DNA from: a virus
Virus record (IMG/VR): IMGVR_UViG_3300034061_003527
Coordinates: 1 to 23,382 of that record
Length of the DNA stretch: 23,382 nucleotides
Reading direction: 5' to 3' (one strand)
Both the position numbers and the translations under genes were made by a program. Below the pieces are notes generated by a model. That model made no database searches. It was not told the origin of the DNA and was given only the letters and a program-made list of their open reading frames with translations. Shown one piece after another: positions 327 through 23,081 of the stretch (positions are counted from its first letter, which is position 1; each line of letters begins with the position of its first letter).

Positions 327-1391
327 ATGCACAACTATAGCACACTCTCAAATATTTCCGCAAGCGCATGGCTCAATTACTACGATGTTCGCCGCGCCAC
401 TGGGGCAGTCATGGCGCATCTAGCCAGCCTCCCCTCTGCCGCCACCCCCGAAAAGCACACCGAGCGCGCCTATACACACGGTCTGCGCGCTTTCTTGGGT
501 TATATCGGTGATGCACAACCCTCTGCCGATGTGGTGCAGGCTTTCATCGCGCATTTGATGGGCAACGGCTTGAAGGCGTCCACCATCGCCAGCAAATACC
601 TTGCCCCCGTTCGCCTGTTCATTCAGGCATTGCTCGCCCAGCGTCCCGCCGTGCCGCTCGCTGAGCGCCTTTACTTGGATGACATGCGCGCCAGTCTTGA
701 GGACGCGCTGAAGGTCAAATCGCCTAAGCCATCCACCATCAGCAACCTAGCCCCCCTCTGGCGTGCCGAGTTTAAGCGACTCTCGCTGAAGGAAGTGCAG
801 GCGACGCTCCGCCAAATTGACCGTAGCACGCTGGCAGGCATGCGCGATTACGCCATGCTCCACGTTGCCTTTAGCACCGGCTTACGCATCGCCGAGCTTG
901 CCCGCATCACCCCGATCAACATCGCCCGTGAAGGCGACCTAGCCCTGATCACTGTCCGGGGTAAACGCGGTAATGTTGACCCCGTTCCCATCAGCACCAG
1001 CGCCTATGCCGATGTTCTAGCATGGATCAAAGCCTATAACGCCGTTGTGCCTGCGACGCATCAAATCCTAGGCGATACCCCCATCTGGCAACCCCTCGCC
1101 AAAGCAGGCAAAACCGCCCTCAAGCGCCTAGACCCCTGCAAGGGTATATCGCATCAGGCACTACGCTCAATCATCGCCAATCGCACCCAAGGAGCGCTTG
1201 GAGCAGACCGCCGTATCAGCGCTCACGATACCCGCCGCACTGCCGCCGCCATCGCCTATGATTCAGGCATGGGCATCGCTGAGATTCAAGCGCTACTGCG
1301 CCACAAAAACGCGGCAGTAACCTTGCACTACGTTGGCACGAAGCCCGACCACGCCAGCCACGCCCTCGGTCTGCGCGTCTCATTCGCCTAG
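327..1391 (+). CDS. Tyrosine recombinase / integrase, XerC-XerD-like (354 aa)
   Basis: A site-specific recombinase of the tyrosine family, which cuts and rejoins DNA through a 3'-phosphotyrosine. An N-terminal SAM-like core-binding domain spans about residues 35-130 (HTERAYTHGLRAFLGYI). The C-terminal catalytic domain has the whole active set: R187 in STGLR, K213 in RGKRGN, H300 and R303 in HDTRR, H326 in LLRHKN and Y335 in TLHYV. The length is typical of Xer and phage integrases. The start ATG at 327 has AGAGG seven bases upstream. It is followed by a strong hairpin terminator and faces the end of the minus-strand late genes. It could integrate the element, resolve multimers for the partition system, or act on the nine dispersed 21-bp elements. 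The sequence does not decide among these. Confidence 0.93.
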   Translation: MHNYSTLSNISASAWLNYYDVRRATGAVMAHLASLPSAATPEKHTERAYTHGLRAFLGYIGDAQPSADVVQAFIAHLMGNGLKASTIASKYLAPVRLFIQALLAQRPAVPLAERLYLDDMRASLEDALKVKSPKPSTISNLAPLWRAEFKRLSLKEVQATLRQIDRSTLAGMRDYAMLHVAFSTGLRIAELARITPINIAREGDLALITVRGKRGNVDPVPISTSAYADVLAWIKAYNAVVPATHQILGDTPIWQPLAKAGKTALKRLDPCKGISHQALRSIIANRTQGALGADRRISAHDTRRTAAAIAYDSGMGIAEIQALLRHKNAAVTLHYVGTKPDHASHALGLRVSFA

Positions 1392-4183: not shown

Positions 4184-5830
4184 TTAGAGTTGGCGCAGGT
4201 AGCGCGTGCCGTCAGCATTCACCACACGCCCGTCCATGCGCTTGGTGAACTTGAAGCCCACTTGGTCGTTTCCCGCATACAACTCGTCCAGACGTTGCAT
4301 CATCATGCCGCCGCCAAAGTCCATCACCCAATATGCCGCAGGGTCATAGAAACAGATCGTGCGTGCCGCCGCGGCGATGGTGGGCATGCCAGCCGCGGTG
4401 AACACCGGACGACCAAGGATGGTTGCGGGACGCTCTGAGAAGCCGGGCGACCACAAGTAGTCGTTCGTGCCAGCCGTGAACTTCAGCTTGCGGATGAACT
4501 GTTCAGTTGCCGGGTTCATCATCCACACCGCGTTCATGCGGTATTGTTCGGGCAGGCTGTAGTACAGATCGATGATTTCATCCGCCGTGATGAGCGTCGC
4601 GCTGGCGCACGTCACGCCCAAGGTCGCGCCCACGGTGATGCCCTGGGGTTGAGCAGTGCCGGTGCCGGTGAAGAACGCAGTGTTCTCCGTCAGCGTGAAG
4701 GCGTTCGCCGTGTCAGGGATCAGCACTTGGTTCATGATGTCAAAGCGGCTATCTGACGCCAGTTCCTGCGAGACCTGCACGATTTTGCCGTACTTGTACG
4801 GGGTGAAGGTCACGGTTGCGAACGCGGGATCTTGGTTGATCGGCAAAGCGCCTGCTTCAGCTACCAGCGTCGCCGCGATGCTGTTGGTCATGCCAGGCAC
4901 TTCCACGCTGTCGGTGCCACTGTACGCCACCACGCGAGCGCCCGACCGGCGCATGTCCGCCTGACGACTCAGGCGCAACACGATTTCGTCGTGCAACAGT
5001 GTCGGCACCAGTGCGCCGCCCACACCCGCGGAAGCCTCGCCCAATGCCTTCAACGCGCTTTTGTCGTTGTGGCGGGCATAGCTCTCAAACGCTTTAAGGT
5101 ACGATTGATCCTCGCTCACCGCAGTCACGGCGACAGGCGTCGCAGGGATGGCAGGTGCGCTTTTCATCGCCAATACCTCGGCTTGCAAATTTTCCAATTG
5201 TGCTTTCAATTCTTCAGTCATCAGATTGTCCTTGAGTTCTACTTCATCGGTCACAGGTTGATCAAGTGCAGGCGCTGGCACTGGTGCGCTTACCTGCACA
5301 GGCGCGGATTGCAAGTCCGCCTCTGCCTGTGCCTCTGGCTCGCCGCTCATGTCATCCATAAGCGCCTTGAGGCTCATCGCTTGCGTGCGTGGCTCTGCCG
5401 GGTTCGGGGTCAAAGTGGCGTCCAAGCCAAGATGCCAGCGCTTTACATGCTTGGCATTCCCAACTCGCTCGCGCTCCACCAGGTGAGGTGCAGTGCCGCT
5501 ACTCCATCCCAATTTGCCCGCCTTTGCCATTTGCCAGATGGCTTGTACGTATTGGTCGCGCAGATTCAGGTAGCCCTCAGCCCACACGCCCACGTCAGTC
5601 TTTTTCAGCGCCACTTCACCGATTGAGTACTGCACTTGTGGGTCACGAGCGTGTTGAAACCACACCGCGGACTTCTCAGCCGTACCAAAATCAGTATCAG
5701 CAGTAAAAAAATCACCGACTAAATCGGGCGCATCGGCAGTGCTGAACAGCACCAAATAGCCGCCAATCTTGCCTTCTTCGTCGAGAGACTTCACCGCATC
5801 GCCGCTCAATGTCACTATTTCATCTGGCAT
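4184..5830 (-). CDS. Fused prohead protease and HK97-type major capsid protein (548 aa)
   Basis: A single polypeptide that joins the maturation protease to the capsid subunit. Residues about 1-155 are an S78/U35-type prohead protease: H60 in WFQHARDP and the nucleophile serine in LGWSSGTAPH (S110 or S111). An acidic, Pro/Ala-rich linker (160-200) leads to a delta-like helical scaffold starting at residue 204 (MTEELKAQLENLQAEVLAMK). The HK97-fold capsid follows from about 235 to the end (GALVPTLLHDEIV, PDTANAFTLTENTAFFTG, WMMNPATEQFIRKLK). The ATG at 5830 lies nine bases after AAGGAG, so it is preferred over the GTG at 5836. A three-copy phage promoter (5860-5887) drives it. Fused protease-capsid genes are known in several siphoviruses. 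Confidence 0.92.
   Translation of the reverse strand: MPDEIVTLSGDAVKSLDEEGKIGGYLVLFSTADAPDLVGDFFTADTDFGTAEKSAVWFQHARDPQVQYSIGEVALKKTDVGVWAEGYLNLRDQYVQAIWQMAKAGKLGWSSGTAPHLVERERVGNAKHVKRWHLGLDATLTPNPAEPRTQAMSLKALMDDMSGEPEAQAEADLQSAPVQVSAPVPAPALDQPVTDEVELKDNLMTEELKAQLENLQAEVLAMKSAPAIPATPVAVTAVSEDQSYLKAFESYARHNDKSALKALGEASAGVGGALVPTLLHDEIVLRLSRQADMRRSGARVVAYSGTDSVEVPGMTNSIAATLVAEAGALPINQDPAFATVTFTPYKYGKIVQVSQELASDSRFDIMNQVLIPDTANAFTLTENTAFFTGTGTAQPQGITVGATLGVTCASATLITADEIIDLYYSLPEQYRMNAVWMMNPATEQFIRKLKFTAGTNDYLWSPGFSERPATILGRPVFTAAGMPTIAAAARTICFYDPAAYWVMDFGGGMMMQRLDELYAGNDQVGFKFTKRMDGRVVNADGTRYLRQL
5219..5233 (-). promoter_or_regulatory. Internal ribosome binding site within the protease-capsid gene
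   Basis: On the minus strand AAGGA-CAATCTG-ATG places a strong Shine-Dalgarno seven bases before an in-frame ATG (residue 204 of the fusion). It falls exactly where the scaffold helix begins. Initiation here would give a 345-aa scaffold-capsid without the protease. Not proven. Confidence 0.55.
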
Positions 5831-19296: not shown

Positions 19297-21609
19297 TTAA
19301 CCCGATGCCTCTTTGTACCAATTGCCGAGTATGTCCAGCAATCCGCCTAGCTGACTTTCAAGCCACCCAAACGCAGGTGACACCATTTCGTTCAGCGCTC
19401 CAATGTTCAGCGCTTGGTCGCCCTCTGCCAGCTCATACAGCACAGACATGGGCATGTCATCCGTCGCGCCGTTCAAGTTAAACACCTCTGGCATGCCCAT
19501 CATGAAGCGCACGATCATGCGTATCTCGTCAGGCACATGCACCACACGTTCGCCCTCATCCTCAACACTAGCACCAGCCGCCCCAGATACCGAAAGCCCG
19601 TAGATAATCCAGCTATCTGCGCCACTGCTACGCCGCTCGCTGATGTCCCCACGCTTCAGCAGGCGCTCAATTGCCCGCGTCACCGTCCCCGCGCTTTTGC
19701 CTGTGGCTTTGATTAAGCTGATCATATTCATTTCGCTGTTCTTCAGTGCCGCCAAGATCATCGCCATCGCGCCGGGGTCGTCCATCTCATCCGCCGCCAT
19801 CGGTGCCGCCAGCACGTCGCCCGTAGGACCTTGCTTCACAATCACCCACTCATCATGAATCACGGCGTACTTGTTGTTCCCGTGAATCACCTCGCGCTGT
19901 CCCGCTTTCCATGCCGTGTCAAGCACCGGGATCGCTTCAATCGGCACGTTCCAGTTCATGCGCGGCTTGCGTGGTGCATCCGTCTTGAGTGGGGTAAACG
20001 GTACTTGATCGCGCCCACGCTCAACGGCGATTAAGTCTTTGACCGCCAGCTCAAATATTTTCAGGTCGCCCTCATACCAGGCGATGATCCGCGCCTTGCC
20101 TGCTTCATCACCCGTCATCAGGTATTTATTGTGCATCCCCTCAAGGCGCTGGCGCATCGGTTTAAAGTCATCAAGCCCCGCGTCAGTCATCATGTAGATG
20201 CTTTTCCGATAGCGCTCCGTCAGCGCTTCCATTTGCCGCTTCAGCGCCAACAAGCCGGGCTGTGCGCTACCGCTCGCAGGCACTGGTGCAAACGTGCGCC
20301 CCTCAATTTCCCCTGTGATGCTTGCCAGCGCCAGCTCGGCTTCAATCTCTTTCAGAAGCCGTGCCGCCTCGACTTGGTTATATTCCTTGGTCGAGTGGTT
20401 GACGCCCTTAGCGCCACCTTCCAAGTGCGTCACGAACTTGCTCATTAGCGTAGCGAACGGGCCTTGGCGATTGATTGGCAGGTACTCCGTGCGCTCCAAC
20501 AATGCTTGCCACGCCTGATTTAACTGCGCCTGCCGCTCTTTGATCGTCTGTCCCCACTCATCGGCAACCATTACAGTTGTAATGGTCGGTGGCACTTCTT
20601 CAGGCTCGGCAACCTTAACGGTCGTTAAGGTCGGTGCTGTTGGGAAGGCTTCCTCACGTATCTTAGATTCCCCCCAATCCTCGGCATCAGCCTCTTGCCA
20701 AATCTCATTCGGGATCTTCAGCAAGCGCCGATATTGCGAGACTTGCGCCATGCTCTTGAGTCCAGTCACCGCTAGCACGTCATTCAGTTTTGCAGGCAGA
20801 ATGCGCCACTTGTTGCCATCTGCCACCTGGGCGTAATACGCTTGCTCGTTCAGCTCGTCCAGCGCCTCAAAACTCGTTTCGGGATACATATCCATGACTA
20901 GGAGCGCCAATTGCCGCGCCATGCCGATCGCGTTCAGCGGACGCCGTGCGCCGTTCTCTGCCGCCTGCTTCCACACGCTCACCCGTTCCCCCACAATCGC
21001 AGGAATCCGCCCGAACTTCTTGGCATCCACATACTTGCTCAGTAGCGTGTAAGCCAAGAATCTCCTTTCCCCACTCTCCACCCAGTAGCCCGTGCCTGTT
21101 TCAGCTTTGCCGATGCTGATCGGATTGATCAGCCCATCCGCGTGAATCGTCCGCGCCAGTTGCGCCAGCTCCACAAACGCCTTCGTTTGTGGCGACGCCT
21201 CATCCATGCCGGGCAAGTCATCATTACTCATGACCGTTTCCATGATCATTTCAGCCATCGCCGTCGCCTTAACCCGTTCATGCGCCGTGTAGAAGTGCCG
21301 ACCAGCGTCACTTGCCCATAACTCCAAAGCCGTCAGGATGTCGCCATCCCCCAGCCGCATGAACAGCGCAGGGATTGCCCGCCGTGGTTGACGCGGGTCC
21401 GGGCGTATCTCTGCCAGCGCCATCGGTTGCGCCACCTTGCGCCCCGTGTCCAGCTTAATCAGGCTCGGTACTTCGTCGGGCAGTGTCCCGTATACGTTCG
21501 CGTCCACCGCCCGCCCGTTGCTCATGTCTGTGGGGGATGCCCCTTTGGGCAATGCGTCCGCCGCTTCCACCCCGCCACCAATGGAGTCTGTTTCAAACTT
21601 CTTAGCCAT
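19297..21609 (-). CDS. parB: Large ParB-like partition protein (770 aa)
   Basis: A CTP-dependent DNA clamp that pairs with ParA to segregate the element. ParB box I is AEIRPDPRQPRR (67-76) and GLINPI is at 159-164. The GERR arginines are at 180-183 (ESGERRFLA), and a helix-turn-helix lies at about 274-305 (LNDVLAVTGLKSMAQVSQYR). Box I and GLINPI are separated by about 80 residues, much more than usual. A C-terminal winged helix (MNMISLIKATGKSAGTVTRAIERLLKRGD) is an added DNA-binding domain. At 770 aa it is more than twice a typical ParB. I use the ATG at 21609 (MAKKF): the longer ORF from 21756 overlaps the upstream gene and its first 49 residues look like a shadow. ATG overlaps the zinc-ribbon gene stop by eight bases. 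Confidence 0.88.
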   Translation of the reverse strand: MAKKFETDSIGGGVEAADALPKGASPTDMSNGRAVDANVYGTLPDEVPSLIKLDTGRKVAQPMALAEIRPDPRQPRRAIPALFMRLGDGDILTALELWASDAGRHFYTAHERVKATAMAEMIMETVMSNDDLPGMDEASPQTKAFVELAQLARTIHADGLINPISIGKAETGTGYWVESGERRFLAYTLLSKYVDAKKFGRIPAIVGERVSVWKQAAENGARRPLNAIGMARQLALLVMDMYPETSFEALDELNEQAYYAQVADGNKWRILPAKLNDVLAVTGLKSMAQVSQYRRLLKIPNEIWQEADAEDWGESKIREEAFPTAPTLTTVKVAEPEEVPPTITTVMVADEWGQTIKERQAQLNQAWQALLERTEYLPINRQGPFATLMSKFVTHLEGGAKGVNHSTKEYNQVEAARLLKEIEAELALASITGEIEGRTFAPVPASGSAQPGLLALKRQMEALTERYRKSIYMMTDAGLDDFKPMRQRLEGMHNKYLMTGDEAGKARIIAWYEGDLKIFELAVKDLIAVERGRDQVPFTPLKTDAPRKPRMNWNVPIEAIPVLDTAWKAGQREVIHGNNKYAVIHDEWVIVKQGPTGDVLAAPMAADEMDDPGAMAMILAALKNSEMNMISLIKATGKSAGTVTRAIERLLKRGDISERRSSGADSWIIYGLSVSGAAGASVEDEGERVVHVPDEIRMIVRFMMGMPEVFNLNGATDDMPMSVLYELAEGDQALNIGALNEMVSPAFGWLESQLGGLLDILGNWYKEASG
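20561..20637. repeat. Two covarying palindromes in direct repeat, inside parB
   Basis: Two 32-base repeats (20561-20592 and 20606-20637), start-to-start distance 45 bases. Each contains a perfect dyad: ACCATTAC-AGTT-GTAATGGT and ACCTTAAC-GGTC-GTTAAGGT (8-bp arms, 4-base spacer). The arms differ at two positions, with matching changes on both sides. The protein shows the 15-residue repeat PTLTTVKVAEP / PTITTVMVADE. Possible ParB binding sites or an operator. Confidence 0.7.
20643..20653. repeat. 11-bp near-palindrome GGAAGGCTTCC, copy 5
   Basis: An exact copy of the five-copy 11-mer within parB, only five bases from the second palindrome of the covarying pair. Confidence 0.6.
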
Positions 21610-22267
21610 TGTCTTGTTTTCCCTTGCTAGAATGTGCCTTCTCAACAATCTTCTTAAATGCCGTCGTTCGTTTCGATAACAGCGAACCCTTCGATGCGCA
21701 GTCCAGACAGTAGCTACTCCCATACCCCGCAGGCGAGATGTAGCGCGGCTTGCCACACTTGCACAGCTTCGGCGTCCCCGCTTCAGCCAATCGCGCCATT
21801 GTCTCGCCCATGCGCTTTCTGTCGTAGATGTTGCGCTTTTTCAAGCACTCGTTGCACAGCGCCAGCACCTTGCCGCGCTTGGTCACATGCCGCATTTTGC
21901 CGCACTTGCACCGCACGTCTGCTCGGTAGCCCGCGCTCCCTTTTTCGCTGTATCGCTCCCGCGAATACGCCGCCCCGCAGGGCAGGCAATAGCCACGTTC
22001 CCCCCGCCGTTCGCGGATGCCACAGCGCGGACATAATCCATCCGTGCGCCGTTTTTCGCGCCCATGCCATGCTTTCAGCGCCGCCAATCCGCGTCCAGTC
22101 AGCGTGTAACTCTCGCCCAGCTTCCACGAGTACACCGCCCAATCATGCTTTATCAGCGCCTTGCGGGTATGAGTGTGCAAGTGCATTTGCACCGCCACGC
22201 CCACGCCCGCCGCCGCCAATCGTGTCAACGCCTGCTCTAAGCTTGGCGTCAAATACGGCGCTGGCAT
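21602..22267 (-). CDS. Winged-helix and triple zinc-ribbon protein (221 aa)
   Basis: The N-terminal part (LTPSLEQALTRLAAAGVGVAVQM, then ESYTLTGRGLAALKAWHG) looks like a winged helix. Three zinc-binding groups follow: LCPRC..GYCLPC, CKCGK..LCNEC and CKCGK..YCLDC, with basic stretches between. Chemically it suits a nucleic acid-binding protein. The ATG at 22267 has GGTGGG upstream and lies just after the parA stop; the ATG at 22288 would overlap parA. It lies between parA and parB, so it may be a third partition or regulatory component. No family name is certain. Element H lies in its last codons. Confidence 0.7.
   Translation of the reverse strand: MPAPYLTPSLEQALTRLAAAGVGVAVQMHLHTHTRKALIKHDWAVYSWKLGESYTLTGRGLAALKAWHGREKRRTDGLCPRCGIRERRGERGYCLPCGAAYSRERYSEKGSAGYRADVRCKCGKMRHVTKRGKVLALCNECLKKRNIYDRKRMGETMARLAEAGTPKLCKCGKPRYISPAGYGSSYCLDCASKGSLLSKRTTAFKKIVEKAHSSKGKQDNG
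21623..21643 (+). repeat. 21-bp dispersed element, copy H
   Basis: CTTGCTAGAA, then TGTGCC, then TTCTC; a full match on the strand opposite to the genes. It lies in the last codons of the zinc-ribbon gene, 14 bases before the parB start codon. Confidence 0.82.
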
Positions 22268-22268
22268 C

Positions 22269-23081
22269 TTATCCCACCTGCGCCGCATTAACGCTCATTG
22301 CCTGCGCCGCTCGCTCCACAAAGCCCCACGCCTCGTCGCTGGCAGGTGACCCCGCAGGCGCATAAGCGAAGATGCTTTGCGTGTTGTAGTTCGCCTCACG
22401 CCACGCAGTCCTCATCCCGATCGGAGACCACACCGCCTCTTTGCCAAAGTGCTTGGTAAGTTGCGCCATGCCGTGTTGATGTGCCGCCGTGTTCGGCGCG
22501 GTCATGGTCGCCTGCACCCCTAACAATGCCGCTGGTGCTAACCCCTCTGCCGCCCGTGTGGCGTTCATCTGCTTAATGCTAATCAGGCTCTTGCCGAGAC
22601 CATTCAGCGCCAAGTGTTCGGGCTGAGTCGGGTAAATCATGCCCGTACTCGCCACGTATAACATCAGGTGCATCATGCTCGGTGATGGCGACGTGTCGAT
22701 GACCACCGTATCGACGAAGCCCTCTAGCTCTGGCAGGCGACGAAGGAGCGCCGCCGCATCATCCACCATCAACGGGATGCCGCGTGTTTCCACGTTGCCC
22801 GGCAGAACGAACAAGTCGCCCTCGCCATCGGCTTTGTATCCGCCACGCCACGCTTTCGGCGCAGGACTCGCTACCAAGCCTTCCCAGTTGCTTTCTTGCA
22901 CCAGCAAGCGGTACAAACCGCCGTACTCCTTGCACCCTAGCGCCAGCGTACTATGCGCTTGCGGATCACTGTCGATCAGCAACACCCGCCGCCCCATGAT
23001 CGCCAAGCCCGCCGCCAGCGTCACCGCTAGGGTGGTTTTACCCACGCCGCCTTTTTGATTCAGTAACGTTACTACGTCCAT
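22269..23081 (-). CDS. parA: ParA-type partition ATPase (270 aa)
   Basis: A deviant-Walker ATPase that moves DNA cargo on the nucleoid with ParB. The deviant Walker A motif KGGVGKTT is at residues 10-17, with the signature lysine K10. LLIDSDPQAHST (34-45) is the switch/A' motif with D37-D39, and Walker B is TVVIDTSPSP with D129. The end carries IGMRTAWREANYNTQSIFAYAPAGSPA, typical of the family. At 270 aa it lacks an N-terminal operator-binding domain (Soj/type Ib form). The ATG at 23081 directly follows the TAA of the small upstream gene. Confidence 0.95.
   Translation of the reverse strand: MDVVTLLNQKGGVGKTTLAVTLAAGLAIMGRRVLLIDSDPQAHSTLALGCKEYGGLYRLLVQESNWEGLVASPAPKAWRGGYKADGEGDLFVLPGNVETRGIPLMVDDAAALLRRLPELEGFVDTVVIDTSPSPSMMHLMLYVASTGMIYPTQPEHLALNGLGKSLISIKQMNATRAAEGLAPAALLGVQATMTAPNTAAHQHGMAQLTKHFGKEAVWSPIGMRTAWREANYNTQSIFAYAPAGSPASDEAWGFVERAAQAMSVNAAQVG

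Follow-up and report, generated by a model that had tools for sequence, protein, structure and literature searches.

Paired dyads within a viral parB gene as candidate parS sites

Why would a gene for a DNA-binding protein carry, within its own coding sequence, two palindromes whose arms have changed and stayed symmetrical? The question is raised by IMG/VR virus record IMGVR_UViG_3300034061_003527, a stretch of 23,382 nucleotides analysed at its full length (the window), for which a preliminary description had pointed to repeated palindromes inside parB as possible parS, operator or RNA hairpins controlling parB translation. From sequence comparison, we consider it very probable that the two dyads are candidate parS sites, centromere-like sites for ParB loading, which lie in-frame inside parB and serve the phage's own ParABS system. 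The parS option is strongly supported by retention of the dyad across a protein family, by its location at parB and by the tracking of one base pair, pair 4, with ParB itself. The gene and the two sites are:

19297..21609, minus strand: parB, 770 aa from the ATG at 21609.
20567..20586: dyad 1, candidate parS-1, ACCATTACA-GT-TGTAATGGT; the coding strand gives T-I-T-T-V-M-V, ParB residues 342-348.
20612..20631: dyad 2, candidate parS-2, ACCTTAACG-GT-CGTTAAGGT; the coding strand gives T-L-T-T-V-K-V, ParB residues 327-333.

The two dyads and their retention among relatives

The dyads lie in a direct repeat inside parB (20561-20591 and 20606-20636, 81% identical), as first described; the 45 bases then given as the distance between the copies are the start-to-start period and not a gap. 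Each copy holds a perfect dyad of 20 bp, with a 2-nt spacer and arms of 9 bp rather than the 8 bp noted earlier. The count of two arm differences, both compensated, is correct for 8-bp arms; with 9-bp arms there are three (pairs 2, 5 and 7 from the centre), 3/3 compensated, and the same pairs vary across the family described below. The encoded PT-L/I-TTV-K/M-VA does recur with a 15-residue period, the repeated unit itself being about 10 residues long. No further dyad with 9-bp arms and a 2-nt spacer was found in the window, base shuffles of which averaged 0.075 such dyads and never placed two of them within 60 bp. With the variable positions left free, the dyad pattern occurred without mismatch at these two places only. 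The 11-bp palindrome GGAAGGCTTCC reported nearby exists at 20643-20653; it is one of 18 such palindromes in the window and was treated as chance, not as part of the system.

A search for close relatives with the single ParB protein gave nothing in viral contigs, genome contigs or phages, a terminase search found no relatives, and phage and plasmid collections held no further close homologues. Scanning a degenerate dyad pattern over viral contigs yielded 99 stretches, two of which (L024 and L070) code for homologues of ParB at 38-39% identity; in both, a dyad lies at the same place and a second dyad about 40 bp away. An alignment search seeded with these two returned 16 viral and 69 cellular loci, nearly all from Chloroflexota (Anaerolineae) genomes or phages, with 82 non-redundant ParB homologues. 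For 64/82 homologues, a dyad lies just after the codons of the DNA-binding domain: a perfect 6-bp core (pairs 3-8) is present in this zone in 60/82, and imperfect or near-perfect dyads occupy it in four more loci (L208, L216, L247 and L225). The dyad is found just downstream of parB instead in 15/82 loci, among them L253 with four copies and L256, L257, L261 and L263 with TATGTTGCCCCGGGGCAACATA-type sites, while the contigs of the last 3/82 (L259, L260 and L262) end before the zone. Within the zone, 67/69 dyads are in codon phase 1, as against 15, 8 and 12 in phases 0, 1 and 2 elsewhere in open reading frames (ORFs). Along the ParB tree, in-gene location is gained or lost about five times. In many cellular members the site core is CGTTACACGTGTAACG, and in 18 cellular genomes (2.8-8.5 Mb) exact site matches fall almost only on the parB contig, exceptions including one site in G018 and a second site in G017 that is 37 kb away on the same contig. 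Thus, as expected of a ParABS system, a palindromic site recurs in or near parAB across the homologues, and the dyad has persisted through sequence change in a deep ParB family, which bears out the earlier suggestion that symmetry rather than sequence is retained.

Beside these sites, L223, L228, L234, L236, L237, L240 and L255 have a dyad of another class (AAGCGCATCNN/NNGATGCGCCT type), located about 40-55 bp beyond parB and ahead of the downstream parS-like site. This class is frequent in cellular members and may be a transcription terminator stem.

Covariation of the dyad with the ParB recognition helix

The window ParB comprises an N-terminal domain (with QPR, GERR and ENxxR motifs), a helix-turn-helix DNA-binding domain, a low-confidence linker that holds both dyads and a long C-terminal part. 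The protein has ParB-like PHROG matches and matches Pfam ParB_N below cutoff only (21.5 vs 26.3 bits); the family profile matches Noc, ParB and Spo0J chains, and the fold matches are KorB, ParB and Noc, KorB being among the best. Profile and fold together give the N-terminal domain of cytidine triphosphate (CTP)-binding type and the helix-turn-helix that a ParABS system calls for. At 770 aa the protein compares with about 400-480 aa in cellular relatives, and a stretch of its C-terminal part (window 19297-19960, minus strand) resembles a winged helix-turn-helix (NMISLIKATGKSAGTVTRAIERLLKRGDI). The part of the DNA-binding domain relevant here is:

20716..20751, minus strand: predicted recognition-helix codons, ParB residues 287-298, MAQVSQYRRLLK (coordinates computed from the ATG at 21609).
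20734-20736, minus strand: codon of Q292, the residue whose equivalents track the pair 4 base of the dyads.

The dyad sequence differs among lineages, and distance between sites was correlated with distance between DNA-binding domains (r 0.47; partial 0.41 given the N-terminal domain). No correlation was seen between site distance and N-terminal distance given the DNA-binding domain (-0.07). The best single column corresponds to window residue Q292, which belongs to the predicted recognition helix. Among 48 diverse members, Q, H or K at this position goes with A at pair 4 in 24/26 cases and any other residue goes with a base other than A in 22/22, position 292 thereby predicting the pair 4 base class in 46/48; the A at pair 4 of both window dyads is the base expected from Q292. 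When the tree was built from the N-terminal part alone, leaving out the DNA-binding domain, 7/9 residue-class and base-class changes fell on shared branches (hypergeometric P about 1e-7, uncorrected for the choice of column). By a reading of the recognition-helix motif, position 292 aligns with N178 of Caulobacter ParB, which is reported among the residues contacting parS (PMC7383237). Since pair 4 tracks a recognition-helix residue and site distance tracks the DNA-binding domain, these comparisons point to ParB itself as the binder of the dyads.

ParB-family proteins are capable of a second job, and the dyads might instead be mainly operators at which ParB or another dimeric regulator represses or blocks parAB transcription, with partition absent or secondary. 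KorB, one of the best fold matches, acts as an operator-binding regulator on RK2, and a site inside the gene could be a roadblock. The sites, however, follow the codons of the DNA-binding domain or lie downstream of parB and not upstream of parA, where no matching dyad class was seen except one in L208, and whole cellular genomes show no scatter of matches to other promoters. We therefore regard a mainly regulatory role as unlikely.

DNA, peptide or RNA

Dyads inside a gene could also be a by-product of the encoded protein. The alternative that the protein repeat alone drives the pattern has a real basis in that a TVTxVTV-type peptide has near-palindromic codons: phase-1 codons for T-V-T-x-V-T-V raise the chance of a dyad to about 5-9% per site in several relatives. 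We held the protein fixed and resampled codons according to the codon usage of the gene itself. The two window dyad cores arose together in 1-3 of 10,000 synonymous resamplings, and the probability of reaching the observed arm length was about 0.0009 and 0.005-0.006 for the two sites. Across 61 loci, resampling expects any core dyad in the zone at 8.8; these 61 were chosen for having one, yet 60/82 overall do. Moreover, the dyads persist although the encoded peptides vary among relatives (TVTTVTV, TLPIGKV and more generally TLPxGKV, SLTVVKH, TVQNWTV), and outside coding sequence same-type dyads are common among relatives. A homologue with the peptide repeat and no dyad had been named beforehand as the observation that would speak for the protein; none was found among the homologues, the apparent case, L225 (TVNDLTV), having an 8-bp perfect dyad at the same place. 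Because the peptides vary, resampling rarely gives the dyads and same-type dyads occur outside genes, DNA symmetry and not the protein repeat is, from these alignments, what evolution kept, and the peptide explanation retains next to no credibility. In the AlphaFold2 model the dyad-encoded peptides fall in the low-confidence linker that joins the DNA-binding domain to a later helix, with a predicted local distance difference test (pLDDT) score <50 at residues 336-339 and 341-348. This linker is probably disordered, its sequence presumably being free to follow the DNA.

A signal kept at the nucleotide level could act in the mRNA. Hairpins controlling parB translation or stability would be expected to undergo compensatory change too, and the mRNA strand does fold into two predicted stable stems of 10 pairs with 4-nt loops (z about -5 each). 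The covariation, however, is not confined to pairs that can form with a loop of at least 3 nt. Pair 2, which is at wobble positions on both sides and was unused in selection, is complementary in 27/31 thinned sites (expected 9.5; 0/20,000 shuffles), and this innermost covarying pair would leave a 2-nt loop. RNA hairpins are disfavoured for this reason, and also by the copies outside the gene in many relatives and by the tracking of pair 4 with a ParB recognition-helix residue; we judge them very improbable. The central pair showed no covariation (12/31 vs 11.1). With pair 2 covarying, which a 2-nt loop would make impossible in RNA, and the central pair not doing so, the pattern agrees with recognition of two half-sites on duplex DNA by a protein dimer.

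Gene setting, proposed mechanism and known systems

The window is a 23.4-kb virus record with an integrase, major capsid, portal, terminase, a replication-initiator-like gene, ParA and ParB. The neighbouring genes that bear on parB are:

22269..23081, minus strand: parA, a Walker-type ParA ATPase (KGGVGKTT) that matches ParA models; partner of ParB.
327-1391, plus strand: tyrosine recombinase, a divergent neighbour of parA if the contig ends join.

A ParA-type Walker ATPase therefore lies near parB, as in a ParABS system. In 20/20 relatives examined a parA match precedes parB, with parB directly after it; in the window one ORF separates the two. This ORF (21602-22288, minus strand, 228 aa) has paired CxxC motifs and is zinc-ribbon-like, with no Pfam or PHROG match and no counterpart in the fetched relative loci. 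Joining the contig ends would place the recombinase and parA in the same orientation as in L024, L070, L187 and L188, which hints at a circular genome, almost complete in this record; a terminal repeat of at least 10 nt was looked for in the window and none was found. A related recombinase gene is near parAB in several relatives, which could suggest that the dyads are crossover sites for dif- or cre-like resolution. Against this stand a spacer of only 0-4 nt, the position of the sites inside parB and the tracking of the site sequence by the ParB recognition helix, and we give this role almost no chance.

Taking the dyads as parS, and following what is known of ParABS systems, a ParB dimer would dock via its two helix-turn-helix domains on each of these sites, the conservation, parB-locus location and helix covariation of which were observed above. 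Docked ParB would bind CTP, close as a clamp and slide onto neighbouring DNA, and ParA would move the phage genome with its ParB coat, so that dividing cells partition a low-copy, plasmid-like prophage. A second site about 45 bp from the first probably makes loading more efficient, and feedback on parB expression is possible. We also entertain, with considerable doubt, a wider proposal in which the centromere of this whole Chloroflexota ParB lineage is maintained as a coding element: a fixed-phase parS in a disordered linker, co-evolving with one recognition-helix residue, where ParB loading on its own gene would give negative feedback on parB. Co-evolution with the helix residue would mean that protein, linker and site change together.

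Several points weigh against the parS assignment or narrow it. Site selection used pairs 3-8, leaving only pairs 2, 9, 10 and 11 unbiased, column 292 was picked post hoc after all columns had been viewed, and the cellular members are metagenome bins. Paired sites occur in several members (the window, L024, L070, L185, L200 and L248); in the nearest relatives (L188, L191 and L219) only one clear dyad was seen, so the pair is not a fixed feature. Finally, a tyrosine recombinase is encoded on the same contig and the plasmid-like prophage state is thus not certain.

ParB sites inside parB are already known. In Bacillus subtilis, the palindromic site parS-359 lies within the parB (spo0J) coding sequence (PMC4442127), as proposed for the window dyads, but it is 16 bp long and of TGTTNCACGTGAAACA type, one of ten on the chromosome (PMC7022226), whereas the window has two 20-bp dyads of another sequence on a phage contig with none elsewhere in it. 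The Thermus thermophilus megaplasmid site parSm, a 14-bp palindrome in parBm, showed specific binding of its own ParBm in gel shift (PMC4409726). It likewise lies inside a parB-type gene, but differs in sequence, is a single site and belongs to a different ParB lineage as far as known. parS of repABC plasmids (GTTNNCNGCNGNNAAC) is in or near the operon, with copies within coding sequences discussed (PMC9040568); its consensus is another one, and the sites of the window family occupy one fixed zone of parB itself. Mycobacteriophage RedRock is, like the window phage, a carrier of parABS, in this case a temperate phage (PMC7157519), but its parS loci each have eight direct repeats of an 8-bp motif rather than dyads inside parB. 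The window dyads do not match canonical chromosomal parS (TGTTNCACGTGAAACA). The CGTTACACGTGTAACG core shares GTTNCACGTGNAAC with the parS consensus TGTTTCACGTGAAACA (PMC7383237), GTTNCACGTGNAAC being common only to some cellular members, and TGTTTCACGTGAAACA at up to one mismatch was found in 0/11 relatives' genomes. In a distant Chloroflexota plasmid (L182, CP069395), three TTTGCCACGTGGCAAA dyads just downstream of parB (4869-4884, 4946-4967 and 5169-5184) are likely its parS.

What is new is the site family, its fixed codon phase in one linker across the lineage, the paired sites in several members and the residue-base code; no report of an Anaerolineae parS family was found in the literature searched, in which journal coverage was partial. 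The dyads would define a family of parS sites in Anaerolineae (Chloroflexota), both phages and genomes, where canonical parS was not found, and would exemplify a DNA signal kept within coding sequence by use of a disordered linker. They would also provide a natural ParB-parS series, in which one base pair changes with the recognition-helix residue (Q/H, E, D or R), making specificity evolution directly testable.
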